Assembly: GCF_041080625.1 (NCBI RefSeq)
Contig: NZ_CP163518.1
Coordinates: 8,859,501 to 8,923,500, forward strand
Direction: 5' to 3'
From: Streptomyces sp. CG1
GTDB lineage: Bacteria > Actinomycetota > Actinomycetes > Streptomycetales > Streptomycetaceae
Length of the DNA: 64,000 nt
This document shows, one piece after another, positions 35,435 to 53,594 of this stretch (its first letter is position 1; each line of letters starts with the position of its first letter). The position numbers and the translations under genes are program-made. The notes below the pieces were generated by a model. That model did no database searches and was not told where the DNA came from. It saw nothing but the letters and a program-made list of their open reading frames with translations.

Positions 35435-35867
35435 GGCGGCTGATCGTAGATGAGTCCTCCCGGCACGTGACATGGAAGAGTGGGAAACCCACCCCGGCAC
35501 GGGCAATGCGAAGTGCTCGACGCTGACGACGCGATGCCCGGTGCGAAGCCGTCGTCGCCCAGCCCGGCAGAGTGCCCTTGCGTGCGAGGTGGCCATGGAT
35601 TTTGGCGGTAGTCCTCAGCGGCGACGCGCATCGGCTCTGCGGTTCGGGAGCTGTCCGCATCAGCTTCTCAAGTCGGTCCACAAGCCTCCTGCCGGTGCCT
35701 GGCCGGCATGTTGCACGACGCCGCAACCTCGTCCCGCAGCCGCCAGTGTGCCCTGTGCGCACTCGTGAGTATGAAGGCCCTGCCGTCCATCGGACGGAAG
35801 GGCCCTGTTCTGGCGGCGCGACGGGCAATCCGAGTGGAGCAGTGGCGGGGCCGGGCCTGGTCCGGGA
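35435..35867. other. Gap with a terminator
   Basis: No gene is supported. The hairpin at 35776-35804 probably ends the chitinase transcript. Confidence 0.45.
35776..35804 (-). terminator. Hairpin terminator of the chitinase gene
   Basis: GGCCCT.CCGTCC pairs with GGACGG.AGGGCC with one internal mismatch and a three-base loop, 64 bases past the chitinase stop. Confidence 0.65.
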
Positions 35868-36872
35868 TCAGCCGGTCCAGCCGCTGGCCGGTAGCCCTCG
35901 CACCCCTCGTGTGTGCGCCGTCAAGACCTGGGCGTTGATCTGGTTGAAGGCGCTGGAGTATGCGTAGCCGGTGGGCTTGTCGTAGCCGTCGACCTCCCAG
36001 AAGGCCAGTTCCCCGACTCCGTGGGAGGCGGCGAAGTTCTCCAGCGCGGTGGCGTCTGACTGCGAGAAGAACTCGTCGTCGTCGTTCTGGCCGGCGATCG
36101 GTGTCAGGCCCATCATCTGGTACGCCTGGGAGTTGGAGATGCCGTAGAGAGTGGCGAGCTGCCCGGCGGTTGCCTGCGCGGCGGATTCGGCGTCCAAGAG
36201 GGCGTTGTGCCCGTTGCCGAAATCCATGGTCATGAGGTTGACGGTGCTGACGTTGACCCCGTTGTCCTTGGCGTCCTGGAGGAGGGCGGTCTGCGCGGAG
36301 GGCAGGCCGTCTGGGGCGACCGCCAGCGTGTAGTCGACCTGGACGGAGGGGTTTTGCGCCTCAAGGGCGGCGAGTGCTTGGTTGCGGCGGGTGTTGGCAG
36401 CCGTGTCGTCCAGTGTGGTGCCTTCGATGTCGAAGTCGAGCCGGGTGACGCCGTAGGTGTTGACGATGCCGGCGTAGGCGGCGGTCAGGTCGGGGACCGA
36501 TGTGCAGGTCTGGGCGAGTTCGCCGCCGGCGGCTCCGCCGAAGGAGATGATGACGTTTCCGCCGCTGTCCTTCAGCGCGTTGATCTGTGAGGTGAACGCG
36601 CCGACGGGGTCGCCGTTGTATTCCCACTGCGCCGTGCAGCCCTCTTGGGGGATGAGGAAGGCCAGTGTGTACTGCTTCAGGCCGGTGGCGGCCATGTCAT
36701 CGGCCATGTCGCCGGCGGTGCCGGAGCCGATCTGGAGATAGGGGGCCGCGTAGTGCGCGGGCCAGGCGGACGCCGGCGCGGCGCCGGCCGGCTGGCCGAC
36801 ACTGATCAGTATGGCGGCGGTGGTGAAGGGGACAACGGCGGCGAGAGCGGCTCTGGGTGGGCGGATGACCAT
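35868..36872 (-). CDS. Secreted GH18 chitinase-like glycosidase
   Basis: 334 residues from ATG 36872, AGGA eight bases upstream. Signal peptide: a basic start then AAVVPFTTAAILISVGQPAGAAPASA. The barrel shows VIISFGGAAGGELA (strand 3 motif SxGG), the catalytic strand 4 RLDFDIEGTTLDD with D-x-D-x-E, and NLMTMDFGNGHN (strand 6, Met-x-Tyr/Phe-Asp). The strand 8 Trp is in ELAFWEVDGYD. No carbohydrate-binding module is attached, in contrast to many Streptomyces chitinases. It should act on chitin or related N-acetylglucosamine polymers outside the cell. Confidence 0.9.
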   Translation of the reverse strand: MVIRPPRAALAAVVPFTTAAILISVGQPAGAAPASAWPAHYAAPYLQIGSGTAGDMADDMAATGLKQYTLAFLIPQEGCTAQWEYNGDPVGAFTSQINALKDSGGNVIISFGGAAGGELAQTCTSVPDLTAAYAGIVNTYGVTRLDFDIEGTTLDDTAANTRRNQALAALEAQNPSVQVDYTLAVAPDGLPSAQTALLQDAKDNGVNVSTVNLMTMDFGNGHNALLDAESAAQATAGQLATLYGISNSQAYQMMGLTPIAGQNDDDEFFSQSDATALENFAASHGVGELAFWEVDGYDKPTGYAYSSAFNQINAQVLTAHTRGVRGLPASGWTG

Positions 36873-39480: not shown

Positions 39481-40053
39481 CGAGGCCAGAGGCGGTGAAG
39501 CAATTTTGGAGCCCTATGAGATCCATGATCACCGCATGGATCTCGATCATGCCCCGGTCCATCACCGTCCCGCAGCGAAACGTCCTGATCAGGGGCCGAA
39601 CTCGGGTTTTCACGCGGGACAGGCGCGGGCCTTGTTGCATACGGGGCCGGCTGGGCCGGCGACGCCATGGCAGCGAGTGCAGGTGTGCTGCCATTCGGAG
39701 GGCACACCTTGGTGGGTCGTCTCAGTTCGGTGAGGGCCCCAATGTTTCCCACGGAGAGGGAGATTCGCGGTCCTGGCGCGGATGTGTAACGCCGGGGTTG
39801 CCGATCGGGATGCTGGTTGATCCAGCCCAGGCCGCCGCTGTCGCCGCACTGGGTCTGGCCTTGGCGTCCGCCGCGCCCCGTTCAGATTCGGGCGCTCCCC
39901 TTGCCGTGAGCCGGAGCGAAGCGGATCCGTCTGGGGGGTCAAGCCCCGTGGCAGTAGTCCCACACGCTCGCCCGCGTGCTCCAACAGCCCGCGCACATGA
40001 GCCGAGCCAGCCTCTCCTGCAGTTCGGGAGGCCCACCGGTTGTGCCGTTCGTT
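39481..40053. other. Gap between IS remnant and kinase gene
   Basis: No gene, RNA or repeat could be supported. The IS right end probably lies in the first 50 bases, but no inverted repeat was identified. Confidence 0.4.
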
Positions 40054-41682
40054 TCACTCCTTGACCGGGGTGTCGCCGTTCATGGCGAAGCGGGCGGAGC
40101 ACTGCTCGCCGGATCGGTCGCTCGCGTTCCAGACACAGATCCACATCGTGTGGCCGACGTCTGGGATAAAACTTGTCTTCGCGGCGCCCCAGGAGGCATG
40201 GAACGTGTACGCGATGCCGTCGCTGCGGTAGAGCTCGGCGTAGCAGCTCTGGTTCAGGGAGGTATTGAGCACGCCTGCGAGCTCGCCGGAGCCGTTGTCG
40301 TCCAGCCAGGCGGAGCAGGCGGCGTCGTTGCCGACCCAGGAGGTATCCGCCTCGGAGCCCTTGACCTGTGCCGGGTCGTCGCTGCCGTTGATACCACTGA
40401 TCGACGACGAGGTGACGCGGGTGGCGGCTGCTGAGGACGCGGCGGTCGCGAGGGGGTCAGAGGGCGAACGCGCGCTGGACGCGCTCGGCGGGACGGTCCT
40501 GTCCGTGCCGGCCGGGACGACCGGGGTCGGGCGTCCGGACTCCGCGGTGGGCGAGGCCGAACGGCTTGGGCTCGCGGAGGACGTCCGTGTCGCCCCGGCC
40601 ACGGGCTCGACGCTGACCGACGCGCTGTCGGACGGATGCGCAGCGCCGTTGTGCCGGGAAGCGGACGGGACGAGTACGAACGCCGCGACGGCGCCGAGGG
40701 CGATCACTGCGGCGGTCGGGAGCAGGAGCAGGCGTTTGCGTGGGCGGCGAGGTAACGCGGCGGACGGGGGCGCGGTCTCAGGCGCCGGATCCGCGTCCAG
40801 GTCCGGCGGCGGGACGGTCTTCAGCTTGCCGACCGGCGTCGCGGCGAAGGCACGTCGCGAGGCGATGCGTGACATGACCTCGGAAGGCCAGGAGGGAGGA
40901 GGAACAGGCAGGTGTGCGCGGGCCGCCTCCACCACCTCACCGGCGGTGGGGCGGGCTCCGGGGCCGGTCGCGAGACAGGACCCGATGACGGCGGCGAGGT
41001 CGGCGTCCACGGCACGCAGCGGCTCGACGTCGGGGACGACACCGGGCGTGCGGCCCGAAGCCGCGTAGAGCACGAGCGCCCCGAGCGAGTAGACGTCCGC
41101 GGGCGCGTCCACGTCCTCGTCCCCGGCCTGCTGTTCCGGTGCCGAGAATCCCTGCGTACCGTAGCTGCCACCGCTCTTGGTGAGCCTCGCCTGGTCTGCG
41201 GCGCGCGCGATACCGAAGTCGATCAGCTTCACGCCGTCCCGCACCAGCATGACGTTGCCGGGTTTGACGTCACGGTGCACGATCTCGAACGCGTGCACGG
41301 CCGACAGGTGAGTGGCCGCCTCGGCCAGCAGCAGCCACAGTGCCTCGGCGGGCAGCGGGCCGCGCAGCCGCACCGCCTCGTCCACGGTGAGTCCGGGTAC
41401 GTACTCGGTGGCGAACCAGGGACGTTCCGCGGTGCCGTCGCTCGCCAGCACCCGCGGCCCGACCCCGGCCGGCACACGGTAGAGGATGCCGACCTCGCGT
41501 TCGAAGCGCTCGCTGGAGACCAACCGTGGCCGGACGCGCTTGACGGCGGCGTAGCCCTTGTCCGACGCCCCGAGGTAGACCTCGCCCATGCCGCCGACGC
41601 CGAGCAGACCGATGATGTTGAAGCTGCCGATCTCCTGCGGATCGTCCGCGCCGAGCGGCTCGGCGATCGTGCTATCCATCAT
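40054..41682 (-). CDS. Transmembrane Hanks-type Ser/Thr protein kinase
   Basis: 542 residues from ATG 41682 (second ATG at 41679), GGGGAA upstream. Kinase domain about 20-270: glycine loop LLGVGGMGEVYLG, Lys48 in AAVKRV, catalytic VHRDVKPGN (Asp138), metal-binding LIDFGIAR (Asp155), GTQGFSAPEQ, and a degenerate AxGRTPG region. Then a Pro-rich linker, one helix (LLLLPTAAVIALGAVAAFVLV), a Ser/Thr-rich stalk and an outer domain of about 100 residues with four Cys (AACSAW, QSCYAEL, ICVWN, EQCSARF). It is not a PASTA receptor. It faces the FHA gene across 171 bases; its phosphothreonines are the natural ligand for that FHA protein. Confidence 0.92.
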   Translation of the reverse strand: MMDSTIAEPLGADDPQEIGSFNIIGLLGVGGMGEVYLGASDKGYAAVKRVRPRLVSSERFEREVGILYRVPAGVGPRVLASDGTAERPWFATEYVPGLTVDEAVRLRGPLPAEALWLLLAEAATHLSAVHAFEIVHRDVKPGNVMLVRDGVKLIDFGIARAADQARLTKSGGSYGTQGFSAPEQQAGDEDVDAPADVYSLGALVLYAASGRTPGVVPDVEPLRAVDADLAAVIGSCLATGPGARPTAGEVVEAARAHLPVPPPSWPSEVMSRIASRRAFAATPVGKLKTVPPPDLDADPAPETAPPSAALPRRPRKRLLLLPTAAVIALGAVAAFVLVPSASRHNGAAHPSDSASVSVEPVAGATRTSSASPSRSASPTAESGRPTPVVPAGTDRTVPPSASSARSPSDPLATAASSAAATRVTSSSISGINGSDDPAQVKGSEADTSWVGNDAACSAWLDDNGSGELAGVLNTSLNQSCYAELYRSDGIAYTFHASWGAAKTSFIPDVGHTMWICVWNASDRSGEQCSARFAMNGDTPVKE

Positions 41683-41853
41683 CAGCAGTTCCCCGGCCGC
41701 TCGCGCTCACGGCGGGCAGGCTATCGAGCAAGTCAGGGCAATGCAACACGAGTTGGCGGCGAACGCGCCCTTGCCCGGCGTACGCATCTGTGGGAGGACC
41801 GGTCCTCGCAGTGCGCTCATACACTGACGCGAGCCGAGTCGGAGGTATGTGAT

Positions 41854-42648
41854 ATGGCGTACGGAAACTTCCCACCCCAGATGCTGCCGCCGGGCAGTCC
41901 CTCCGACAGGGTGCCCTCGGCGCCGCCAGGGACGATCTTCGTACTGGGTCCGGAGGGCGGGTACGCCGTGCCGCCGCGCCGGTACACGCTGCTGTTCGGG
42001 CGCGACCGCGAGGACGTGCATGTGCCGGTCGGTGTCGACGACCCGACCGTCAGCCGTCGGCACGGCGTGTTCACCTGCACGGCCTCGGATGGCGACTGGT
42101 GGCTGGTCAACACTGGCAATCTGCCGATCGAACTGCCCGACGGCGTGCTGATGCTCACCGGCCACAAGCGGCTCATCGAGTCCGGGTACACCCCGCTGCT
42201 GATCAACTCGTCCAAGCGGCGTTCCCACCTGGTGGAGGTCCGGGTTGTGGACGAGGACGATCGGAACCCCCGCTCCACGAGCGGTGCGGAGACCGTGGAT
42301 CCCGAGACGGTCTACGAACTCTCCCCGCAGGAGCGGCTGGTACTCACCGCGCTCGCCCGGCGCTACCTCGAGGGCCACGAGGCCTTCCCGCTCCCGCTGG
42401 CCTGGGAGGACACCGCCCGTCTGGTCAACGCCTCCCCTTACGCGACCAAGTCCTGGACCCACAAGTCGGTCGCGAATACGGTGGAGGACGTGCGCGAACG
42501 GCTGCATCGCCGGGGCGTGCGCGGACTGCTGCGCGACGAGGTCGGCGAGCCGGTCGGCTCGACACTCAGTGTCAACCTGATCAGGGAACTGCTGAAGACG
42601 GCGACACTGAATGCTCAGGACTTGGAATTGCTGGCAGACAAGGACTGA
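41854..42648 (+). CDS. FHA-domain protein with C-terminal helical domain
   Basis: 264 residues from ATG 41854 with GGAGGT seven bases upstream. The FHA domain (about 30-115) has YTLLFGRDREDVHVPVGVDDPTVSRRHGVF, with the Gly-Arg, Ser-Arg-Arg-His and, later, NTGNLP core that binds phosphothreonine. The C-terminal part (150-264) begins LSPQERLVLTALARRYLEGHEA and contains HKSVANTVEDVRERLHRRGV, a helix-turn-helix-like arrangement. A kinase-controlled transcription factor or adaptor is plausible. It is divergent from the kinase gene and convergent with the 79-aa gene. Confidence 0.88.
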   Translation: MAYGNFPPQMLPPGSPSDRVPSAPPGTIFVLGPEGGYAVPPRRYTLLFGRDREDVHVPVGVDDPTVSRRHGVFTCTASDGDWWLVNTGNLPIELPDGVLMLTGHKRLIESGYTPLLINSSKRRSHLVEVRVVDEDDRNPRSTSGAETVDPETVYELSPQERLVLTALARRYLEGHEAFPLPLAWEDTARLVNASPYATKSWTHKSVANTVEDVRERLHRRGVRGLLRDEVGEPVGSTLSVNLIRELLKTATLNAQDLELLADKD

Positions 42649-42664
42649 GCGGATCGCAGGGTAC

Positions 42665-42693
42665 GTGCCCCGGCCGGTCGTCGGCCGGGGCAC
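42665..42693. terminator. Bidirectional terminator
   Basis: GTGCCCCGGCCG pairs perfectly with its complement (42682-42693) around a five-base loop, between the FHA gene (ends 42648) and the 79-aa gene (ends 42704). Confidence 0.8.
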
Positions 42694-42703
42694 GCGGCGT
42701 TGC

Positions 42704-42943
42704 TCAGCGTTCTTCCTCAGGCTCGGCTTCGGCGTTGTATGTGACGTGCATGGTGCCGTGTCCGACGGCGAAGACGGCCGCTTGGTCCTCCGCGGAGATC
42801 TGTTGGTGCGGCTGCGGCTGCGGCTGCGGTTGCGGTTGCTCAGTGCGATGCGTCGTGTTCGTCACCTGGTTGTTGTCGCCTACGATCAACGTGCCGGAGA
42901 CGTCCCCGGCGTGGATGTCCCCGTGTGTGGATTCCGCGGGCAT
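42704..42943 (-). CDS. 79-aa protein sharing motifs with the island's other proteins
   Basis: 79 residues from ATG 42943, AAAGG upstream. The first part, IHAGDVSGTLIVGDNNQVTN, matches the N-terminus of the adjacent STAND protein (IRTGDVSGLMVAGSHNTVHT). A Gln-Pro repeat (QPQPQPQPQP, from repeated GGTTGC/GGCTGC triplet pairs) links to a tail AAVFAVGHGTMHVTY, similar to the tails of the genes at 46467 and 47220. No enzymatic residues. It lies 32 bases behind the STAND gene on the same transcript. It may be a regulatory partner docking through one or both motifs. Confidence 0.7.
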   Translation of the reverse strand: MPAESTHGDIHAGDVSGTLIVGDNNQVTNTTHRTEQPQPQPQPQPHQQISAEDQAAVFAVGHGTMHVTYNAEAEPEEER

Positions 42944-42975
42944 GGCCTGCCTTTCGTGGTCGGTCTCGGGGAAGG

Positions 42976-45453
42976 TCAGCCGCCGCAGTCGGTCAGCAGG
43001 CTGGCTTTGGCCGAGTTCAACGCGTCGATTTGACTCGACGTGTCGAACCCGGAACCAGTCGGATCGTCCTCGAACGACTGAAGCTCCTTCTCTGCCTGCT
43101 GAGTGCCGGTCAGCATGTTGTTGAGGTCTGCTTCCACGGAGCTGTCTCGGGCTTGCGGTATGGCCCCCTGCAACGTGGACTCGAAGGAGTTCAGGTCGCT
43201 GATGACCGTGCTGACGTCGGAGAGCACCGTGCTGTCGTCGGGTGCGGTGGACGTCTCCCGCGAGTTGTAGGAGTCCATGGCGCTGTTGTATGAGTCCAAC
43301 GCGTCGGACATGGTCGAGACGTCCGTGTTGTACTGCGGGATCTTTGGCGCCAGGTCCTCGATCACGGTCACGCACACAGGATCGACGGAAGGCGACGTGT
43401 TGTCGCTGGGCGATGTGTTGTCGCTGGGCGATGTGTTGTCGACCGGGCTGGATGCGCCGACGGGGCCTGACGAGACGACTGAAGACGGGGTCTGCTGGTC
43501 TGTCGCGTAGACCGCCGCACCCACACCCAGCACGGCTGCGACGCCGATGGTGCAGGCGATGGCCAGTGCTGATATCCCGCCCTTGGCACTCGCCGTGCCC
43601 GCGGCGGTGAACATCGTGTGGCTCGTGCTCGTCACGGGCGCGGTCGTACTCAGGCCGTGCGTCGGCTGGACGGCGGAGCTGTGTGCCTGCGAGAGGTCGA
43701 TCCGCTTCGGTATCGGTGCGGTGGAATTGCCGCCGGCCATGTGGGCGACAGCCTGCGGCTGTTGGGCGGGATGCGAGAGGTTGACCACTGGCTTGGCCAC
43801 GGGTGTGTGCACGGGAGCCGGAGTGGCGGGTGTGGTGGCGGCCGCGTGCGTGACGGGCGTGTTGCCCGCGATGTGGTGCGTCGGCATGTTGCCCGCGGCG
43901 TGCGTGGGGGTGAGCGGGTGGCTTGGGGGTGTGGTGGTCGGCATGTTGCTAGCCACGTGCGTCGGGGTGATCGCGTGGGCCGACTGCGTCGTGGCCGTCG
44001 CCGCGTTGGTGAATTGCTGGGCCGCCGAATGCGCGTGCAGAGCGGTCAGTTCCCGCCACAGCACGTCCGCCTCGAGCACCAGAGCCGTCGTCAGCGCACC
44101 CCGGCCGATCGCCTTGCGGCGAGTGCGAGCCTCGCGCAGGAAGAACTCCTCACCCGCCTTGTCTCCCACGCTCTTCACCGCTGCCCAACCGACTCCGAGC
44201 AGGCTGCCCCATGCATCGAACTGCCGGGACAGCGCCAGCTTCGGCGAGGCGGCACGGGCCAGCGCCGCGCCGAGCTGCGCGTGTCCGCTCTTCTCCGCTC
44301 GCAGCACCGCGACATCCAGGGCCTGAAAGTGTGCCGCGACATCTTCCGGGGTGGTGTCACTCGCCTCGACCCACGCGGTGAGCGTCCGGCAGAGCGGCTC
44401 GGCGGGAAACACCGTCTCCCGGCTCTTCAGCACGCATTCGGCGACATCTGGCGGACAGCTGTAGCCGGTCTCCGAGGCGAGCAGCAGGCCGTGTCGCACC
44501 AGGCCGTCGGCGAGCGTGTCGATGTCCGGCGGGCCGAGCAGGTCATTGAGGTGTCGGGCGGCCAACTCGGCGCCGGACAGCGAGCCGAGCAGGTGCAGCA
44601 GGTCGCGTTCCTGCGGCCGGAGCTTGTTCAGCAGCGCGGGAAGCAGTTCGGGGAGATCGGCGATGCCTGGCAGTCCCTTGCCGGTCGTGGCCGACAAGGC
44701 GATGCGCCGCAACCGGAGCGGGCTGCCGTCCACCGCGTCGCACAGCGCCTCCACGGTCCGCGCCTCGTCGGGCCGCAGCTCGCGGGCCAGCACCGCCTCC
44801 ACCAGTTCCGCCCCCGCCGAGGCCGTCAGCCCGTCGAGCCGGATCGCATGCACGCCGTCGACCCCGGACCGCTGCTGGGAGGTGAAGACGAACGTGGACT
44901 GCTCGGCCATGTCGAACAGCCGGTGCAGGTCCTTCTCGTCGAGTCCCGCGTCGTCCAGGTAGACCCGCAGCCGCAGTGTCTTCAGATGCTCCTTCAGCAC
45001 CTCCAGCGACGGCTTGTAGTTCGGCGCGTCGAAGCTGATGTCGAATATCGCTTGCGCGATGTCATCTGCCGTACGTCCGCCGGCTTCTATGTAGGCCGCG
45101 CCCTCGGGCCCGCGTGGCATCGTGCACGCGAGGTGGCGCAGCAGCGCACTCTTGCCGATCCCGGACGCGCCCCAGATCTGCACCAACTGACGTGTCTCGA
45201 CGGCCTCGCGCAGTACCCGGAGTTCCCGCTCCCGTCCGATCAGCCGCTCGGCGGCGGACCGCGGCAGCTGGGAGATCGGCTGACGCTTGACCGGATCCGG
45301 CAGCGGCCCCCCGTGCACGGTGACGGTCGAACCGTGCTCGGCGGTGATCCGCAGGGTGTGCACGGTGTTGTGGCTGCCTGCGACCATCAATCCGGACACG
45401 TCGCCGGTCCGGATCCGCTCGGGAGCGTCCGAAGTACCGTTGTCCTCTGGCAT
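42976..45453 (-). CDS. STAND-type NTPase with C-terminal membrane anchor and outer domain
   Basis: 825 residues from ATG 45453 with GGGGGA six bases upstream. Residues 12-45 carry a GDVSG..VAGSHN motif and strands. RLIGRERELRVL (70-81) opens the NTPase: Walker A WGASGIGKSALL (94-105), Walker B RVYLDDAG (about 163-170), sensor-like VFTSQQR, then GSPLRLRRIAL and a winged-helix/helical region to about 470. A long His/Thr/Pro-rich segment precedes one helix (ISALAIACTIGVAAVLGVGAAV, about 630-650) and a coiled outer domain. An 18-bp repeat codes SPSDNT three times in the stalk. STAND proteins are switch ATPases of signalling and defence. A membrane-crossing form with no obvious effector domain is unusual. 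Confidence 0.8.
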   Translation of the reverse strand: MPEDNGTSDAPERIRTGDVSGLMVAGSHNTVHTLRITAEHGSTVTVHGGPLPDPVKRQPISQLPRSAAERLIGRERELRVLREAVETRQLVQIWGASGIGKSALLRHLACTMPRGPEGAAYIEAGGRTADDIAQAIFDISFDAPNYKPSLEVLKEHLKTLRLRVYLDDAGLDEKDLHRLFDMAEQSTFVFTSQQRSGVDGVHAIRLDGLTASAGAELVEAVLARELRPDEARTVEALCDAVDGSPLRLRRIALSATTGKGLPGIADLPELLPALLNKLRPQERDLLHLLGSLSGAELAARHLNDLLGPPDIDTLADGLVRHGLLLASETGYSCPPDVAECVLKSRETVFPAEPLCRTLTAWVEASDTTPEDVAAHFQALDVAVLRAEKSGHAQLGAALARAASPKLALSRQFDAWGSLLGVGWAAVKSVGDKAGEEFFLREARTRRKAIGRGALTTALVLEADVLWRELTALHAHSAAQQFTNAATATTQSAHAITPTHVASNMPTTTPPSHPLTPTHAAGNMPTHHIAGNTPVTHAAATTPATPAPVHTPVAKPVVNLSHPAQQPQAVAHMAGGNSTAPIPKRIDLSQAHSSAVQPTHGLSTTAPVTSTSHTMFTAAGTASAKGGISALAIACTIGVAAVLGVGAAVYATDQQTPSSVVSSGPVGASSPVDNTSPSDNTSPSDNTSPSVDPVCVTVIEDLAPKIPQYNTDVSTMSDALDSYNSAMDSYNSRETSTAPDDSTVLSDVSTVISDLNSFESTLQGAIPQARDSSVEADLNNMLTGTQQAEKELQSFEDDPTGSGFDTSSQIDALNSAKASLLTDCGG

Positions 45454-45561
45454 GTGTTTCCCCCGTTCTTTCCAACGCTAGGGTTCCGGCGTTCGGTCAT
45501 GCTGGCGCCGACCCGTCGTGCGAACCCGGTGCTTTTACCTGTTCGGCGAGATCGCCGGCGA

Positions 45562-46293
45562 TCAGGCTGTCGCGGCTGCGACGCCCTGTGACGGTCCGGC
45601 CGCGACGGCGATTCGGGCGAGGTGATCCAGGTCGAGGATCGTGATCCTGCGGTAGCCGGTCACGACCGCGCCCGACTCCCGCAGCGCCCGCAGGGCCTTG
45701 TGGATCGATGACTCCGCCGCGCCGACCAGGGTGGCCATCTCCGGCTGCGACAGCGGGAGATGGGCTTCGTTCCGGCCGGGACGCCCGTAGGTGACGGCCA
45801 GGTGGTGCAGAATCCTGGCCAGCCGCCCGAGGACGTCGCAACCAGTGAAGTCGACGATCCGGCCGGTCGCCGTGCGCAGCTTGGCCACCACGCTCGCGCT
45901 GAGCGCAAGTCCTATGGCGGGGTGCTGTTTCGTGCACTCCAGCAGTTCGGAGCGCAGGATGTAACGGGCCAGCACTCTGCCGCAGGCGGTCACGGTGCCG
46001 ACGCGCGGCTGGCCGTCGATCCCGGCGAACTCCCCGACCAGGTCCCCGGCCATCCGCACGGCCAGCAGCGCCTCGCGGCCGTCCTGCGCGTGCGCGGTGA
46101 CCTTCACCATGCCGCCGAGCAGGAGCAGCGCGAAGTCCGAGGTGTCGGCCTCGCGGATGGTGATCTGGCCGGCCGGGTAGGCCACGCCGTGGCCGAGTCC
46201 CATGAGGATTCCGCGGTCGGCCTCGTCGACCCGGCCGAGCAGCCCGGCCGGCGGCCAGTAGGCCGCAGCCCCGCGAACACGTGCGTTGTTCAT
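45562..46293 (-). CDS. Crp/Fnr-family transcriptional regulator
   Basis: 243 residues from ATG 46293 with AGAGG eight bases upstream. The N-terminal cyclic-nucleotide-binding barrel has GVAYPAGQITIREADTSDFALLLLGGMVKVT and GDLVGEFAGIDGQPR, which keeps the Gly-Glu of the phosphate-binding cassette but not a clear Arg-Ser pair. The C-terminal winged helix has LPLSQPEMATLVGAAESSIHKAL, the Crp recognition helix. No Cys cluster, so not Fnr-like oxygen sensing. It is divergent from a nucleotide-cyclase-like gene, which could make its ligand. Confidence 0.85.
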   Translation of the reverse strand: MNNARVRGAAAYWPPAGLLGRVDEADRGILMGLGHGVAYPAGQITIREADTSDFALLLLGGMVKVTAHAQDGREALLAVRMAGDLVGEFAGIDGQPRVGTVTACGRVLARYILRSELLECTKQHPAIGLALSASVVAKLRTATGRIVDFTGCDVLGRLARILHHLAVTYGRPGRNEAHLPLSQPEMATLVGAAESSIHKALRALRESGAVVTGYRRITILDLDHLARIAVAAGPSQGVAAATA

Positions 46294-46466
46294 CGGCCAC
46301 ACCTCTCTTCCTCGTGCAGCCGAAGCCGCACAAGCCGTATTAGTAGCCGTTCTACCCGGGGACCCCTCCTCTACGGTCTCGTCAATCATCTTGTCGACAC
46401 CGGATGACCCGGATGACAGCAAATCGATCTTCGAATTGCCTGCCCCGTCGTGATCGCGGAGGAATC

Positions 46467-47210
46467 GTGAATCCGAGGTACGAATACCGAGCCCTGCTGG
46501 CGTGCGACATCGCGGGCTCCGCGGGCCGCGGCGAGCAGCGGCTGCAGGAGATCCGCAGACTTCTGCGTTCCGCGCTGTCCGACGCCCTGGGCGTGGCGGA
46601 TCTGGACGCGCGGGACTTCGCGTACGTCGACACCGGTGACGGCTGCCAGCTCGTTGCCCCGGCCGCACTGCCCAAGGCCAGACTGCTGTTCCCGCTGCTC
46701 CCGGAGTTGTGCTCACGGATCCGCGAGCACAACCGGCACGCCGGCGCGGACACCCGGCTGCGAGTACGGGCCGCGGTGCACGCGGGGGAGATCCGGCTCG
46801 ATCCGGACGGCACCGTCTCCGGCGCCCCCTTCGAGGCGCTGGCCCGGCTGCTCGACTCGGCCCCGCTGCGACACGCGACCCTGGCCGGTACCGGCGGCAC
46901 CCCGCTGGCCGCGATCCTTTCGCACCACTTCTACGAGGAAACTGTCGGGCACGGCTACGAGGGGCTCGAAGCCGACGCCTTCACCGCGGCCGACGTCCGG
47001 GTCAAGGAATACGCCGCGCGGGCCTGGCTCTGGTACCCGGGCAGCCCCGTCGGGCCGCAGGTCGGTTCCGGCCGGGATTCCGACTCCGGCGAGCAGCCTG
47101 CGCAGCCCGAGCCGGGGACCGTGGAGCAGCTCGTCCAGGCCACGGGACACGGCACGGTCTTCGCCGTGCACCGGGGCGACCAGTACATCCGCCACAACGA
47201 CCGGGGCTGA
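46467..47210 (+). CDS. Class III nucleotide-cyclase-fold protein
   Basis: 247 residues from GTG 46467 with GGAGGA just upstream (the longer frame from 46404 lacks a ribosome site). The core matches the cyclase homology domain: ALLACDIAGSAGRG (metal-binding Asp), ARDFAYVDTGDGCQLV (second Asp in the D-x-G-D-G loop), LRVRAAVHAGEI and GAPFEALARLLDSA. The substrate-specificity Lys/Asp and transition-state Arg/Asn are not clearly placed, so it may be a cyclase or a nucleotide-binding sensor. After residue 195 a Gln/Pro linker leads to a tail GTVFAVHRGDQYIRHN shared with the next gene and the 79-aa gene. Confidence 0.75.
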   Translation: MNPRYEYRALLACDIAGSAGRGEQRLQEIRRLLRSALSDALGVADLDARDFAYVDTGDGCQLVAPAALPKARLLFPLLPELCSRIREHNRHAGADTRLRVRAAVHAGEIRLDPDGTVSGAPFEALARLLDSAPLRHATLAGTGGTPLAAILSHHFYEETVGHGYEGLEADAFTAADVRVKEYAARAWLWYPGSPVGPQVGSGRDSDSGEQPAQPEPGTVEQLVQATGHGTVFAVHRGDQYIRHNDRG

Positions 47211-47219
47211 TACGCGCTG

Positions 47220-47636
47220 ATGAACGAGGAACTCGCCGAGCTGGCCGCGAGCGGCGCCACCGCTCTGGTCTCCGCAATGGGCACCGATCTCTGGCAGGAG
47301 GCGAAGAGACTGATGAGCCGCGTCCTCGCACAGGCTCGCGGCAGCCGCCGCAACGAGCTGTCCGTGGCGCTGAACCGGCAGTCGACGGCCACGAGGGGAG
47401 CGGTCGACGCCGGGGCCGTGGACTACTGGACCGAGGCCCTGTCCCAGCTGCTCGACCGGAACCCGGATCTCGCCCAGGACGTCATGGCCCTGGCTTCGCT
47501 GCGAACCCCGGAAAGGCCGGACATGGTGATCCAGGTCAATTCCGCCACCGATTCAGGTGAGGTGTTCGCGGTGCAGCGCGGCACTCAGCACTTCGCCTCC
47601 GGGCCGAAATCCCGCGATTCCGGGGAACGGCCGTGA
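47220..47636 (+). CDS. 138-aa protein of unknown function, shared tail motif
   Basis: 138 residues from ATG 47220, nine bases after the previous stop, and overlapping the phosphatase start (GTGA). The N-terminus ELAELAASGATALVSAMGTDLWQEAKRLMSRVL is an amphipathic or weakly hydrophobic helix pair that I have seen opening other Streptomyces proteins of unknown role. The centre is helical (VDYWTEALSQLLDRNPDLAQDV). The tail SGEVFAVQRGTQHFASG matches those of the 79-aa protein and the cyclase-fold protein. Probably a small adaptor or effector-associated module of the island. Confidence 0.65.
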   Translation: MNEELAELAASGATALVSAMGTDLWQEAKRLMSRVLAQARGSRRNELSVALNRQSTATRGAVDAGAVDYWTEALSQLLDRNPDLAQDVMALASLRTPERPDMVIQVNSATDSGEVFAVQRGTQHFASGPKSRDSGERP

Positions 47637-48835
47637 GCCGGGACGACAGCCGGCGAGACGGCTTCATGGACGGACGGCTGCGGGCGGTGCTGTTCGTGGC
47701 CGTCGTCATCGGGGCCTTCATCGAGGTCAGCACGCCGCATCGGCGGTATGGCCCGTTGGTGGACGTGTTCGCCCTCGCGGCAGTGGGTGTCGTCGGCGCG
47801 GCGGCCGTGCTGGGGTCCGAGTCCGCCGCGACGCTCGCCCGGCAGCGGGATCGGCTCGAACAGGTCCCCCAGCCGAGCACAACGGTTCCGATCTGCCGCT
47901 ACGTCACCGGACCGGTGGCACCGCCGCCCCAGCCCCCGAGGCCCCGGCCGTTCCTGCGCGAGCGGCCGACCGACCTGAGCGTTCCCCGCTTCGGCGACGG
48001 CGCCCGTGCCCAAGGCTATCCCTGGCTGCTGCCGGAGCGCACGGTGCAGAACGGGATCGCCGCCGACGAGGCCACGGTCGGTGCCTTCACCATCCGCGCG
48101 GCCTCCGTCATCGGGCCCGGCCACCGCTGCGGCCAGCCCGCCGAGCCGCGCCAGGACTCCTACCGGATCGGGCGAAGCCGGGACAGCCGGTACGCGATCG
48201 TGGCCGTCGCCGACGGCCTGTCCAGCGCGCCTTGGTCCGACGCCGGGGCCACCACGGCCTCCAGCCAGGCCGTCACCCTGCTGCGCGAGCAGATCGAGAC
48301 GGTGGGCTTCGGCGGGCTCGATGTCAAGGAGCTGTATGGGCGGATCGCGGAATCGATCGCCGCGCACGCGGCCGGCCGCGGCGTCGGCACCTCGCACATG
48401 GCCACCGTGCTGATCACCGCCGTGCTCGCCGAGCCAGACGCTAACGGCGTCGCGAAGGCCTGGGTCGCATGGCTCGGCGACAGTTCGGCCTGGACGCTCG
48501 ACCCGCGCGTCCCGCTGTGGCGGTTCTCCGCCGGCGAGGCCAAGGACCGCGCGGCCGCGGTGGTCTCGAACGAGGTCGCCGGACGACTGCCGGACACACC
48601 GCAACTGGCCAGGGACCACTACGTCACGCTGGCTCCCGGCGCCGCCCTCGCCCTGGTCACGGACGGGATCGGCGACGCGTGGGCGGACCCGGCGGGCAAC
48701 ATCAACGAGTACTTCGCGAACGCCTGGCGCTCGCCGGTGCCGGCCACCCGGTTCACCGCCGACGTCGGCTTCGACGCGCCGCAGTGCCTTGACGACCGCA
48801 GCGCTGTCGTGGCCTGGAACGGTGACCGGGTATGA
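47633..48835 (+). CDS. Membrane-anchored PP2C-family protein phosphatase
   Basis: 400 residues. Two N-terminal helices (LRAVLFVAVVIGAFIEV, VFALAAVGVVGAAAVLG) then a Pro-rich linker. The PP2C core from about 165 has RQDSYRIG, AIVAVADGLSSAPWSDAGA, SHMATVLITAV, AWLGDSSAWTL, ALVTDGIGDAW and the final CLDDRSAVVAW, giving the metal-binding Asp set. Start overlaps the previous stop and its own stop overlaps the next start, so it is strictly coupled. It should remove phosphate from Ser/Thr set by the neighbouring kinases, the second member of a TerY-type phosphorylation triad. Confidence 0.88.
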   Translation: MSRDDSRRDGFMDGRLRAVLFVAVVIGAFIEVSTPHRRYGPLVDVFALAAVGVVGAAAVLGSESAATLARQRDRLEQVPQPSTTVPICRYVTGPVAPPPQPPRPRPFLRERPTDLSVPRFGDGARAQGYPWLLPERTVQNGIAADEATVGAFTIRAASVIGPGHRCGQPAEPRQDSYRIGRSRDSRYAIVAVADGLSSAPWSDAGATTASSQAVTLLREQIETVGFGGLDVKELYGRIAESIAAHAAGRGVGTSHMATVLITAVLAEPDANGVAKAWVAWLGDSSAWTLDPRVPLWRFSAGEAKDRAAAVVSNEVAGRLPDTPQLARDHYVTLAPGAALALVTDGIGDAWADPAGNINEYFANAWRSPVPATRFTADVGFDAPQCLDDRSAVVAWNGDRV

Positions 48836-49974
48836 CCGAACCCCATCTCATCGACGGCGCCGATGACAGTGTCGGCGGCGGCCCGGCGGCCGATCCGCGC
48901 GGCTGGGCGTTGCCACGGACCGTGAGCGTCAGCGATCTCGGACCACTGGCCGAGCCGATCTCCGAACACAACGGCCAGGCCATCGCCGTAAAGCCGCTGA
49001 CGAACCATCCGGGCTGGCTGGCCAAGCTCTACCGGCCGGACCAGCATCCGGAGGACGCCGACCGGCTCGACCTCCTGATCTCGGCTCCGGGCACGCTGCC
49101 GGAGGCGGATCGTGCGCTCCTGTACGCCGGCACGTGCTGGCCCGCGGCCCGGATCCACGAAGCCGGCAACCCGGCCGTCGGCTGCGTGATCCCGATGGCG
49201 CCTGAGCAGTACCGTTCCGAGCTGCGGCGCGGCGAGTTCAGCGATCGCCGCTTCGTGGAGATCGACTGGCTGGCGAAGTCCGACGAGTCGATCCGGGGCG
49301 TCGGACTGCCGCCCCCCGGCTTCGCGGGCAGGCTGGCCGCCTGTCGGCAACTGACGGAGCTCGCCACGATCCTGGAGAGCCTGGGCCTGGTCTACTCGGA
49401 CTGGTCGTTCTCCAACGCCTTCTGGAGCCCGGATCAGCGCTCTGTCTACCTCATCGACGTCGACGGCTGTCAGCCGAAGAAGATGCCTGACATCCACCAG
49501 CCGAACTGGGCCGACCCACTCACTCCGCCGGGCACCGACGCGGACGAGTACACCGACCGCTACCGGCTCGGACTGCTCGTCGCCAAATGCATGACGGGCC
49601 GGCGTGACGCGCACACCTTCCACACCGTCGCCGCGTCCCCCTGGCAGAACCAGCCCGCCGTCTCCGAAGTACTGCTCGACATGCTGCTCGCGACCGACCG
49701 CGAGCGACGACCCTCGGCCGCTCAGCTGAACCAGGCGCTGAACAGCGGCCCCTATCTCAGGACCGTGCCACGTCCGACACGCACGGCGCTGCCGCCGTTG
49801 CCCACGCAGCCCACGCAGCTCCCGATCCCGCAGCCCCCCGCCGACCCCGACACGGCCGCGACGGAACGCGAGTCGGTGCCTCCCCAACCGCCCCAGCCCG
49901 GCCCGCAGGTCGGCTGGATTCTCGTACTCGTCATAGCCGTGATCCTGCTGTTCGTCATCGCCTCCAACCACTAG
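48832..49974 (+). CDS. TerY-associated protein kinase-like protein with C-terminal anchor
   Basis: 380 residues. The kinase fold is divergent: AIAVKPL (Lys), a helix with PEADRALLYAGTCWPAARI, catalytic segment LVYSDWSFSNAFW (Asp and Asn in place of HRD..N), metal motif YLIDVDGCQ (DVD for DFG), and an activation region YTDRYRLGLLVAKCM. This is the form seen with TerY/vWA genes. After a Pro-rich linker the protein ends in one helix (VGWILVLVIAVILLFVIASNH), so it is a tail-anchored kinase. It overlaps the phosphatase by four bases and precedes the vWA gene. Confidence 0.85.
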   Translation: MTEPHLIDGADDSVGGGPAADPRGWALPRTVSVSDLGPLAEPISEHNGQAIAVKPLTNHPGWLAKLYRPDQHPEDADRLDLLISAPGTLPEADRALLYAGTCWPAARIHEAGNPAVGCVIPMAPEQYRSELRRGEFSDRRFVEIDWLAKSDESIRGVGLPPPGFAGRLAACRQLTELATILESLGLVYSDWSFSNAFWSPDQRSVYLIDVDGCQPKKMPDIHQPNWADPLTPPGTDADEYTDRYRLGLLVAKCMTGRRDAHTFHTVAASPWQNQPAVSEVLLDMLLATDRERRPSAAQLNQALNSGPYLRTVPRPTRTALPPLPTQPTQLPIPQPPADPDTAATERESVPPQPPQPGPQVGWILVLVIAVILLFVIASNH

Positions 49975-49988
49975 CTCAAAGGTGCACC

Positions 49989-50639
49989 ATGTCACTCTGC
50001 CTGCCCACCTATGTGGTGATCGACGCGTCCTCGTCGATGAAGGAGCACGAAGCAGTGCTCAACGCGACCCTCTCGCGTCTGCACTACAACCTGGCGACGA
50101 ATCCCCGCGTCTCGGAGTTCGCCCGAGTCTGCGTGGTCGCCTTCTCCACCGATGTGCACGTGGTGATCCCGATGTCGGACATGGAGCAAGTGCCGGCCCT
50201 GCCCGAGGTGATCTGCGGCGGGCGCACGGAGTACGGCAAGACCTTCGACCGGGTGCGGGAGTGCATCGAACAGGATGTCAGTAACCTGAGGATGCAGAAC
50301 CTCGACGTGCTGCGGCCGACGATCTTCTTCCTGACCGACGGCGGTCCGACCGACGCACACTGGCAGCACTCCTTCCGCAAGCTCGTGGACAGGGACTGGC
50401 CGCGCCACCCGCACGTGATCGCCTACGGCTTCGGCGGTGCGAGGCGCGACGTGCTGGAACAGGTGGCGACCAAGGCGCTGTTCATCGCCGACGGTTCGGA
50501 CACCGAGTCGGCGCTGAGCGCGGCGATCACCGGACTGCTCAACACCCTGATCGCCTCGTCGAAGACCGGTCAGATGCGGATCGCCACCGACGTCAAGGGC
50601 TTCAAGTACGTCGAGGTCGCCCAGGAATACGTGGACTGA
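49989..50639 (+). CDS. TerY-like von Willebrand A domain protein
   Basis: 216 residues from ATG 49989, AAAGGTG upstream. The vWA fold has an intact metal-ion site: YVVIDASSSMKEHE (D-x-S-x-S), the Thr in GGRTEYGKTF, and FFLTDGGPTDAHW (the T-D-G-x-P-T/D loop). The C-terminal strands IADGSDTESALSAAITGLL and a short tail complete the TerY type. With the phosphatase and kinase this forms the three-gene TerY triad of tellurite/stress and conflict systems. Its start follows the kinase stop by 14 bases. Confidence 0.88.
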   Translation: MSLCLPTYVVIDASSSMKEHEAVLNATLSRLHYNLATNPRVSEFARVCVVAFSTDVHVVIPMSDMEQVPALPEVICGGRTEYGKTFDRVRECIEQDVSNLRMQNLDVLRPTIFFLTDGGPTDAHWQHSFRKLVDRDWPRHPHVIAYGFGGARRDVLEQVATKALFIADGSDTESALSAAITGLLNTLIASSKTGQMRIATDVKGFKYVEVAQEYVD

Positions 50640-50944
50640 TGACGGACGTCGACCCGCGTTCCACAGCGTCCCGAACACTGCGCGCCTCCGTCGGACTGAC
50701 CGCGCTGGCCGCAACGCTGCTCGTCTGCGGCGCCGCGGTCGAGGCGACGGGCAATCTCCTCGGCACCTCGGCGAACGGAAGCAGCGGCAGCTCACACCTG
50801 ACACCCACCGTGCACCCGACCCATACCCGCTCCCGCGCCTCCGAGGCGCCGTCGCAACACCGACCGCCCTCGACCTCACCCTCCTACCTGCCCACCCACA
50901 CGACCACGGCCACCGCTACCGGTAGTTCGTCAAACGGGCGGTAG
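50639..50944 (+). CDS. Small secreted or membrane-tethered Ser/Thr-rich protein
   Basis: 101 residues; its ATG overlaps the vWA stop (TGATG), so it belongs to the operon. Residues 13-40 form one hydrophobic segment (LRASVGLTALAATLLVCGAAVEA). The rest is a Thr/Ser/His/Pro-rich tail with no domain (HPTHTRSRASEAP). It could be a signal-anchored outer stalk, or a substrate phosphorylated on the many Ser/Thr. No relatives recognised. Confidence 0.65.
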   Translation: MTDVDPRSTASRTLRASVGLTALAATLLVCGAAVEATGNLLGTSANGSSGSSHLTPTVHPTHTRSRASEAPSQHRPPSTSPSYLPTHTTTATATGSSSNGR

Positions 50945-51268
50945 AGGTCAAGGCCGCGTCCAGTGGTGACCGCATCGAGCAGGGCATGGCGCTCGGAGGT
51001 CGGGTCCTTGTCCGTCCAGGCTCGCCCCGGTGCACACCAGGGGAGGGAAGGACGATGGTCCGACGGCTGCACCGAACCCGGCCCGCGCCTTTGCATGCCG
51101 TGGCATCGAGCGCGCGGCACGAGCAGCTGACGTTTACGGAGCACGCACACTGCTTGGCGTTTCTGACATGCAACTATCCAAAAACAAAATTCCGTCATCA
51201 ATCACATGGGCTCGTACGGCAATTGGGAAGGCAAACGGGCTCACGGCAGCCCAGAGCGGGAGGCGCAC
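50945..51268. other. Gap after the signalling island
   Basis: No gene is supported. Frames crossing it lack good starts and recognisable motifs. Confidence 0.4.
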
Positions 51269-51523
51269 GTGGGAATACTGCACGCGATCCGGATGCAGAG
51301 GCTCGTTGCGGACGCCAGGCGCGCACACGCGCAAGGGGACGACACCTTCGAAGCGTCCATCGACATCGACCCCCGGGGCATGGCCCGGGTCAGGAACCCC
51401 ATGAAGAAGATCCGCAAGGAGATCGACCTGGTCGTACGATCCGTCGAAGCCGTCGGCTGGGAGTGCGTGGGCGTCGACCAGTTCATGTACTCGATCAATA
51501 TGAAGTTCGTCCGAGCGGGCTGA
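51269..51523 (+). CDS. Small helical protein of unknown function
   Basis: 84 residues from GTG 51269 with GGGAGG five bases upstream (the frame opens at 51206, without a ribosome site). HAIRMQRLVADARRAHAQGDDTFEASIDI, RNPMKKIRKEIDLVVRSVEAVGWE and the last FMYSINMKFVRAG suggest a compact alpha/beta domain. Codon use fits its neighbours. I think of similar Streptomyces small proteins but cannot name a family. Confidence 0.6.
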   Translation: MGILHAIRMQRLVADARRAHAQGDDTFEASIDIDPRGMARVRNPMKKIRKEIDLVVRSVEAVGWECVGVDQFMYSINMKFVRAG

Positions 51524-51799
51524 AAGGACTTCCCCAAACCGGGTGTGGTGCTGGGGGTTCCGTATAGGCGTGCTGTTCAGGTGATTGCGGTCCCGCCGGG
51601 GCATGAGGGCAGGGCCTCCCAGTGGCACAGAGGGTGTCTACGCTACTGCTTACCGGGAGGCCCTGTTGCCGCAGTTGTGTCGGTCTGCCGGGGGACAGTC
51701 CATTGCGGGCATGCGGGAGTGTGACTGCTGCACCCACACATACGGCAACGCCGCGGACAACCCGAGCGGCGGGCACTGGTATCCGACCGACATGATGGA

Positions 51800-52310: not shown

Positions 52311-52859
52311 CACCCGCCCCGTACTCGGCGCGCCAGCCGCCTTCCATGATCCCGGGCCGGGCGCGGGATTGCTCGCGTGCTCACGACTGGGCCTCCGCCA
52401 GGGCACCCGGAGCGGCTCTGCGCAGGTCCGCTCCCACCCGAGCTGGAGCGGGTTCGGTTCGATCCCCACTGACCGGCGGGAGCCTCGTCCTTCTTTGCTG
52501 GCCGGGCGCCCGCTCGGCGCGTAACGTGACACGGCGAGAAGATCCTCATCAGTGCCGACATGGATGGGCCACCCGTGCAACCTGACCGACCGACGTGCTG
52601 CCGGGGACACCGCAGTGGGAGCGGCGCCGGTCGCGATGTTCGCCAGACGTGAACGCCGTCGTACAGGGCTTACTTCGACGGCGAGGCGAACAGATCCTGG
52701 TCAACGAGGCCCACTAGACCATGCGCTATCTGCTGCTGAAGCACCTGGACGGGCGGGTCGAGATGCTGATGAGGCGACGCAAGGTGTTGTCCATGGTGGA
52801 GGGCGTCCAGTACGGGCTACTTCAGGCACAGAACTCCGCCCGTAAGCTGGACAGTTCCT
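52311..52859. other. Gap between two pseudogenes
   Basis: No gene recognised; probably decayed DNA. Short frames on the plus strand (about 52640-52850) show no family resemblance. Confidence 0.35.
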
Positions 52860-53470
52860 CGAACACATCCCTCGCCGATAGGTCGTCGCCTGCCGCGCAT
52901 GGTCCGTGAAGCGCGTGACGCTGATGACCTCGGTCACGCGACATCGACGTCGCTGACGCGCCGCAGACTGGCCTTCATCTCGGCCGCGGTGGCCGGTGCC
53001 TCCCGGTCCGCCGGGTCCATCCGGCTCGACAGTGCGGACACGGCCCGGTCCCGGCTCGTAGATGTAGGCGCCCGTGGGGGTGTGCTGCGAGCCTGCCCCG
53101 GGGTTGCTCCGCCCCCTCGATGGCGCCCACCGCTTGCCGGACCGTGATCTGCGGATCGGTGCCGCGAACTCGAAGCCTGCTTGACGGCGAACCAGACTGC
53201 GGCCTCCGTCGCAACCGAAGAGCCATGCCACGCGCACGTCGTCCCCGCCCCCCGGCGAACGGTGACACCGTCCGAGTGCGCGTTGTATCCACGCACCTCG
53301 ACCCCGCGCCGGACCTCGAGGCCCAGCTCCGCCGCGCACTCCCCGAGGATTCGCTCCACCTCGACCTGCGGGACTTGCACATACCAATCCGGGCCACTGC
53401 CGCAGGCTCGGGTCGTGCTCGTCGACGGGGTCTTCCGGGACCTGGATTCCGCCGAAGTGCGCCCTGTGGT
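52860..53470 (-). pseudogene. FAD-dependent aromatic monooxygenase remnant
   Basis: Fragments in different frames: FGGIQVPEDPVDEHDPSL, MQVPQVEVERILGECAAELGL, EVRRGVEVRGYNAHSDGVTV, WLFGCDGGRSLVRRQAGFEF (the GD-like FAD motif region C-D-G-x-x-S-x-V-R) and then AVGAIEGAEQP. These follow the order of PheA/TfdB-type flavin hydroxylases. The N-terminal Rossmann GxGxxG is missing and at least three frame changes occur. Not functional. Confidence 0.6.
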
Positions 53471-53594
53471 GCGGAGGGTCTGGAACGGATGCCTTCGTCA
53501 AGCCCGTGCTGCAGCGCCGGTGCAACTCGCGGGGGCAGCGGTCAAGTGCCGTCGCGACCGCGAGTTGCGGAGTGGCTGGAGCGGTAGATCCCTG

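Follow-up and report, generated by a model that had tools for sequence, protein, structure and literature searches.

A two-motif protein as the probable joint of a travelling STAND and cyclase-fold gene island in Streptomyces

The 64,000-nucleotide stretch of Streptomyces sp. CG1 analyzed here (the window; contig NZ_CP163518.1, in a genome of 11.1 Mb and two contigs) carries an island of eleven genes, g1 to g11 (Table 1), whose five-gene core, g3–g7, is probably a signalosome of the amyloid NLR type in which a bivalent protein serves as an ASC-like adaptor. The core consists of a STAND-like ATPase (g4), a Crp-type regulator (g5), a protein with a predicted cyclase fold (g6), a small Bell-like protein (g7) and a short protein, g3, with two different motifs, one in common with g4 and the other with g6 and g7. 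Judged by these motifs, g3 is the probable joint between receptor and outputs, and the chances seem about even that it is a bivalent amyloid adaptor converting a self-templating signal A on the receptor side into a second, insulated signal B on the effector side. A preliminary description of the island, made from the sequence of the window, had linked its two halves (40054–45453 and 45562–50944) by adjacency and membrane spans and had given g3 no role; that link was incomplete, and the boundary between the halves is not the natural joint.

Motif pairing between receptor, adaptor and effectors

An alignment of 35 g3 sequences has two conserved blocks separated by a variable linker. The N-terminal one, motif A, is similar to the N-terminus of the STAND protein, and the C-terminal one, motif B, to the C-terminal ends of g6 and g7. 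Related loci were sampled by scanning one genome per species (84,980 species) with an alignment of ten g6 sequences; the scan gave 425 pattern matches, of which 219 encode relatives, and from these 219 the 80 best were kept (L059–L138), including 17 close loci in Streptomyces, Kitasatospora, Streptacidiphilus and Actinacidiphila (g6 identity of 71–93%) and 37 deeper loci (L076–L112). Across the 16,934 open reading frames (ORFs) of the 80 loci, a motif A profile trained on 34 g3 heads scored at least 12 bits in 83 ORFs, namely 40 g3, 40 g4 and 3 cyclase proteins, and a motif B profile trained on 65 tails of g3, g6 and g7 scored at least 15 bits in 136, of which 134 are g3, g6 or g7; the remaining two are a fragment of Bell-like type and a small protein that is partly hydrophobic. 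With a threshold of 8 bits, motif A is present in 42 of the 49 g4 matches, and g6 carries a motif B tail (9 bits) in all 17 close and 33 of the 37 deeper loci.

The pairing was also assessed without profiles, by aligning the g3 head to all other ORFs of its own locus (37 loci, 127–263 ORFs each). The best ORF was the STAND in 32 of the 34 loci that bear one (168–263 ORFs per locus), and for the C-terminal half of g3 the top three included g6 in 32 of 37 loci and g7 in 31 of 34. At the level of sequence, a code in which A pairs with A and B with B is well supported. A protein search with 14 g3 C-halves returned 158 relatives among 4,027 candidates; among the 120 listed (P0001–P0120), motif A was recognized in 114 by pattern and 117 by eye, and three bear another head. 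The relatives of g3 are a sizeable family of small proteins, named hypothetical or nothing in their sources, except for the stray names cupin (P0048) and triosephosphate isomerase (P0111).

Where the head of g3 is replaced, its partner is replaced as well: in the three loci that lack the STAND, g3 has another head that pairs by sequence with a different neighbour, a NACHT-type protein in two and a multi-transmembrane protein in one. In the two Catenulispora loci (L101 and L102) the head does not resemble motif A; of the 210 and 127 ORFs, the one ranking first for it is a neighbour, matched at its N-terminus, and in L101 this neighbour carries a NACHT domain (Pfam, 2.6e-9). In Nocardia sp. alder85J (L093) a third type of head nearly equals the C-terminus of the adjacent multi-transmembrane protein, which scored 107 and came first among 236 ORFs, the runner-up scoring 36. 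Other loci bypass the adaptor: L097, L106 and L108 have neither g3 nor a motif B tail, and the N-terminus of the cyclase bears motif A beside a STAND gene, the STAND's own copy in L108 lying under the profile threshold and being seen by eye. In 9 of 40 further loci a motif similar to the tail of the cyclase occurs in an ORF close by, which in some distant loci is a large one; examples are L051 and L122 (scores of 78 and 80, both neighbours being weak nSTAND3 matches), L103 (74) and L111 (65). In L085, which has no g7 match, the neighbour of g3 is a small protein that is partly hydrophobic and bears motif B, and in L049 a single ORF unites cyclase and Bell-like parts with a tail. Such joint change of partner and motif would be expected of a connecting motif. 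The matched protein of the Nocardia locus (L093, 10736–12880), whose membrane segments were judged by eye, is without a Pfam match, and the motif A cyclases of L097, L106 and L108 directly adjoin the STAND genes, without a Bell-like gene.

As a signalosome, the core would be set in motion by g4, which has one transmembrane segment and could use its outer domain to sense a cue from outside or from the membrane and then cluster. Motif A at the g4 N-terminus would nucleate motif A of g3, its partner by sequence, and clustered g3 would show motif B and thereby recruit and template the tails of g6 and g7, which match it in the same manner. Clustered g7 might perturb or gate the membrane, with death or dormancy as the outcome, while clustered g6 might make or bind a nucleotide. 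The divergently placed, Crp-type g5 would probably control expression and may provide feedback, and g8–g10 and g1–g2 would act as clade-specific layers of phospho-control. The most likely physical basis of the pairing is templating of the amyloid type, which has been proposed for bacterial NLR/Bell signalosomes, and the analogy with bacterial amyloid motifs makes an amyloid nature of motifs A and B likely; of this scheme, we infer the amyloid nature, the trigger and the output.

The same wiring could be built from ordinary docking motifs, for example through beta-strand pairing onto a fixed partner or scaffold, without self-templating amyloids. Such docking, which we hold to be a minority possibility, is favoured by the lack of a RHIM-type Pfam match for the motifs and by their weak statistical likeness to published amyloid peptides. 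Of the BASS1–10 motifs, one published BASS3 peptide, from Frankia, was compared: 6 of 37 g3 heads reached p < 0.05 (1 of 37 C-halves), and the corresponding numbers were 14 of 37 (3 of 37) for a Methanothrix peptide and 5 of 37 (2 of 37) for the fungal sigma peptide. However, both partners carry the same motif, which is expected of self-pairing rather than of peptide-to-domain docking, the tails are predicted to be disordered, and bacterial amyloid motifs, in the available portions of the literature, are likewise placed N-terminally on the receptor and C-terminally on the effector.

It should be noted that several results weigh against the amyloid adaptor and the signalosome built on it. The resemblance of motif A to the published amyloid peptides is weak, the window's own g3 head compares with BASS3 at p = 0.08, and searches of Pfam and the PDB gave no match for g3. 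Recall of the profiles within their training classes (g3 for A; g3, g6 and g7 for B) holds by construction, though the training accounts neither for the g4 matches and the three cyclase proteins nor for the scarcity of other ORFs. Motif A is missing from 9 of the 49 g4 matches at 12 bits and from 7 at 8 bits (some of them weak or cut by contig ends), the STAND ranks second for the g3 head in L068 and 25th in L099, and the head swaps are limited to three loci, two of which are near-identical. The Pfam scores for FHA (g2) and STAND/AAA (g4) lie just under the curated cut-offs. Bell domains are described with a transmembrane helix in the accessible parts of the sources, but a hydropathy scan found none in g7 (no 19-residue window of at least 1.8 on the Kyte-Doolittle scale, a crude test). 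Finally, g6 is without the catalytic asparagine of class III cyclases, which makes a nucleotide signal uncertain.

A travelling unit and its core

The eleven-gene block is a sharply bounded, travelling unit in soil actinobacteria. The gene-neighbourhood comparison proposed in the preliminary description found the order g1–g11 identical in all 17 close loci within flanks that are mostly unrelated, which is more than chance would give. All eleven genes are held by 16 of the 17, g11 reaching just 25 bits in L075, and in Kitasatospora sp. MAA4 (L074) the island breaks inside g8 though the contig continues, with the core intact. DNA similarity to the window has its left edge at 39904–40564, the latest two edges (L070 and L075) being contig ends, and its right edge at 50772–51593, except for 48486 in L074; L068 has a single stray match beyond the edges. 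More than 400 bp are common to 7 of 630 pairs of flanks (36 flanks from the window and the 17 loci), those on the left of L070 and L075 being too short to tell. To the right of the island, an extra short stretch (51057–51593) is kept in five of the close loci (L059 and L061–L064).

Among these loci, the ranks of island identity and rpoB identity to the window disagree. Actinacidiphila oryziradicis has the highest island identity of the 17 (90.3%) with an rpoB identity of 89.5%, while the island of Streptomyces sp. IMTB 2501 is 88.4% identical against 98.4% for rpoB. This mismatch of sequence identities points to horizontal transfer of the island, and the correlation that persists over 153 genome pairs (Spearman 0.41) indicates that vertical descent also contributes. 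Plasmid records held no match to the island. An island that moves, with layers that come and go, could also be a mobile, defence-type cassette whose modules are together by hitch-hiking and whose shared motifs are duplicated tails with no joint function; the pairing rule is nevertheless kept by three independent-looking head replacements and three adaptor-less loci, and we consider this explanation highly improbable.

Presence in the 37 deeper loci (more than 30 bits) distinguishes the core from the rest. The STAND (g4), Crp (g5) and cyclase-fold (g6) genes are found in 31, 33 and 37 of them and g7 in 25, against one for g1, none for g2 and two each for g8–g10; g1 and g2 are both present in 17 of 17 close loci. 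Since g1, g2 and g8–g10 are nearly absent at this depth, the core is g3–g7, and the triad of phosphatase, kinase-like and vWA genes (g8–g10) and the kinase/FHA pair (g1–g2) are added, optional layers. The preliminary description would have been contradicted by halves that never co-occur; they stand together in all 17 close loci, and genes from both sides of that boundary persist in the deeper ones.

The same description had seen one membrane-linked pathway of phospho- and possibly cyclic-nucleotide signalling, in which the kinases, phosphatase, FHA protein, cyclase and Crp protein carry the information and the small proteins are minor. The joint travel of the eleven genes through 17 of 17 close loci is consistent with such a pathway, as are the cyclic nucleotide monophosphate (cNMP)-binding domain of the Crp protein and the cyclase fold of g6. 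It appears improbable, if slightly less so than hitch-hiking, given that the phospho-control genes are missing from at least 35 of the 37 deeper loci, that g6 has lost the catalytic residue and that the motif code directly links g4, g3, g6 and g7. What survives of the claim that all parts are one system is the travelling unit; with the kinase, FHA and triad genes optional, a single system could hold for one clade at most.

The two deeper loci with the triad belong to Catenulispora; there the vWA gene is followed, on its own strand, by g3 and g4. The PP2C/kinase/vWA trio also adjoins a distant cyclase-fold gene in L052. The triad thus recurs with cyclase-fold modules. PP2C and vWA genes lie near distant cyclase-fold proteins at L052, 948–8766 (with a kinase-like gene too), and at L054, 3633–10748.

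Effectors and related systems

The preliminary description had called g6 a cyclase, and the class III nucleotidyl cyclase fold is upheld by its predicted structure. The model (predicted local distance difference test, pLDDT, of 82.9, with a low-confidence tail) gave a best Foldseek match with an E-value of 6.1e-9 and a probability of 1.00, and all 50 listed matches were cyclases, with TM-scores by query of 0.44–0.56. Residues D14, D58, R127 and K180 are kept without exception in 33 sequences, and D14 and D58 are in register with the two metal-binding aspartates of the class III profile. At the position aligned with the catalytic asparagine, ahead of the conserved arginine, the ten sequences aligned have E, I, A or V; g6 is therefore a degenerate or altered cyclase, possibly one that binds nucleotide only, and the proposed cyclic-nucleotide signalling is doubtful. 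The asparagine is retained in the distant L052, L053 and L054.

Pycsar systems consist of a cyclase and a cNMP-binding protein. The island resembles them in having a cyclase-fold protein plus a cNMP-binding protein and differs in that, besides the altered site of g6, the binder is a Crp-type DNA binder: in g5 the cNMP-binding domain is joined to a Crp-type helix-turn-helix (HTH), as in the Crp/Fnr family, and not to a membrane or TIR effector, and the PADLOC matches fall in the binding domain. For the second effector, g7, the predicted structure (pLDDT of 72.6) is a bundle of five helices with a tail of low confidence. In outline it resembles Bell domains, which are small alpha-helical bundles that carry a motif at the C-terminus.

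The bacterial amyloid signalosomes of Dyrka et al. 2020, known here via later papers (PMC7889193, PMC8086366, PMC12261475), combine Bell and NLR proteins through BASS motifs and are described in the accessible parts of these papers as two-gene receptor–effector clusters with one common motif (pairs or triplets in one source). The likeness, as far as those parts go, extends to a P-loop receptor that adjoins a small helical effector (g4 and g7 in 17 of 17 close loci, with the P-loop domain under its Pfam cut-off), to the N-terminal receptor motif and C-terminal effector motif and to the occurrence in filamentous actinobacteria. In contrast to the signalosomes so described, a separate two-headed protein here joins different receptor and effector motifs (A in g4, B in g6 and g7, both in g3), its head changes with the receptor, and a cyclase-fold protein is a second effector; direct sharing between receptor and effector is seen in the relatives L051, L122, L103 and L111. 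In its apparent mode of action the block is akin to a motif-linked NLR signalosome, yet it breaks the one-motif rule of the family because a two-motif adaptor stands between receptor and effectors, and this adaptor is the new part. The available portions of the bacterial amyloid literature mention neither two-headed proteins nor cyclase effectors.

ASC has a PYD-CARD layout. Like the ASC-type adaptors of animal inflammasomes, as outlined in the accessible part of PMC13012725, g3 is a small protein with two different, putatively self-pairing modules that stands between sensor and effector; unlike ASC, it has no death fold and its modules are two motifs of about 20–25 residues, and no homology is claimed. 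If the signalosome reading is true, bacteria evolved the sensor–adaptor–effector layout of the inflammasome with such short motifs and with a modular adaptor logic as in ASC, whereby exchanging the head alone would plug STAND, NACHT or multi-transmembrane receptors into the same pair of cyclase and Bell-like effectors. Motif B and cyclase-fold effectors would then be new to bacterial amyloid signalling. With the head swaps that occur in nature, template specificity could readily be tested, and what bacterial NLR amyloid cascades switch on would become directly testable in Streptomyces.

The optional triad resembles the TerY-P triad as far as PMC11090510 was available, in that a trio of vWA, PP2C and kinase-like genes forms an optional layer on a conflict system. 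The TerY-like vWA (g10) and PP2C (g8) genes agree with that triad, and g9 departs from it: the TerY-P kinase ends in a zinc ribbon, with an OB fold in a variant, whereas g9 has neither, no cysteine behind its kinase-like part and a transmembrane anchor at its end, and g8 differs by its two transmembrane segments. The conflict systems of multicellular bacteria treated by Kaur et al. 2020 (PMC7159879) include, in the sections available, cyclase domains, some of them inactive, vWA/PP2C/kinase neighbours and homotypic effector-associated domains that link proteins. The island has comparable components and links; the links described there are domains, and those sections do not mention short two-headed proteins.

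Features of the locus

As initially described, all eleven ORFs are intact, with frames that overlap at g7/g8, g8/g9 and g10/g11. The domain assignments of the kinase, Crp, PP2C_2 and VWA_2 genes are above the Pfam cut-offs, the FHA and STAND calls fall just short of them, and Pfam gave no domain match for g3, g6, g7, g9 and g11. Membrane crossing had been proposed for the kinase, STAND and phosphatase; transmembrane (TM) segments are predicted in all three, and the list was incomplete, g9 and g11 having them also.

Table 1. Genes, motifs and intergenic elements of the island (positions in the window)
Feature	Position	Strand	Evidence
g1, Hanks-type Ser/Thr kinase, outer C-terminal part, accessory layer	40054..41682	-	Pkinase 88.2 bits (cut-off 31.7); one TM (hydropathy)
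g2, FHA-like protein, accessory layer	41854..42648	+	FHA 19.1 bits, under cut-off 20.7
Perfect 12-bp inverted repeat between convergent g2 and g3	42664..42694	.	without T tract
g3, two-headed protein, 79 aa, proposed adaptor	42704..42943	-	motif comparisons
Motif B in g3, residues 46-70	42734..42808	-	common to g6 and g7 C-termini
Motif A in g3, residues 8-30	42854..42922	-	common to g4 N-terminus
g4, STAND-like ATPase, outer C-terminal domain	42976..45453	-	AAA_16 26.9 (cut-off 32.6); nSTAND1 24.8 (cut-off 27.1); one TM
Motif A at g4 N-terminus, residues 13-33	45355..45417	-	sequence comparison with g3 head
g5, Crp-type regulator	45562..46293	-	Pfam cNMP-binding domain and HTH above cut-off
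Divergent g5-g6 region, conserved core	46294..46466	.	alignment, window and 17 loci
g6, predicted class III cyclase fold, other residue in place of the catalytic Asn	46467..47210	+	predicted structure, alignments
Motif B at g6 C-terminus	47139..47207	+	motif comparison
g7, small five-helix Bell-like protein, disordered tail (predicted)	47220..47636	+	predicted structure
Motif B in g7 tail	47532..47603	+	motif comparison
g8, PP2C phosphatase	47633..48835	+	PP2C_2 51.9 bits (cut-off 24); two N-terminal TM segments
g9, divergent kinase-like protein	48832..49974	+	weak kinase-region matches, kinase-like motifs by eye; C-terminal TM
g10, TerY-like vWA protein	49989..50639	+	VWA_2 30.8 bits (cut-off 27)
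g11, small protein	50639..50944	+	one hydrophobic segment (hydropathy)

Both gaps that had been taken for divergent promoter regions exist. The gap between g5 and g6 has a strongly conserved core, long and nearly invariant over 18 sequences, which is a candidate operator or promoter. The proposed shared terminator (42665–42693) corresponds to a perfect inverted repeat between convergent genes, though one without a T tract, and an inverted repeat with arms of 7–17 bp lies at the g2/g3 junction in 14 of the 17 close loci. For g6, GTG 46467 rather than ATG 46404 is the most likely start, as the orthologues begin there and a GGAGG site lies upstream.

By eye, STAND homologues (g4 of the window and those in L039, L040, L043, L044 and L048) have two different-looking outer C-terminal parts, a comparison of sequences that suggests exchange of the sensor domain on homologous STAND proteins. 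Neighbours of the island in the window, at 34541–36872 and 52701–53525, include an HNH endonuclease, a family-18 glycosidase and a short FAD-binding match.

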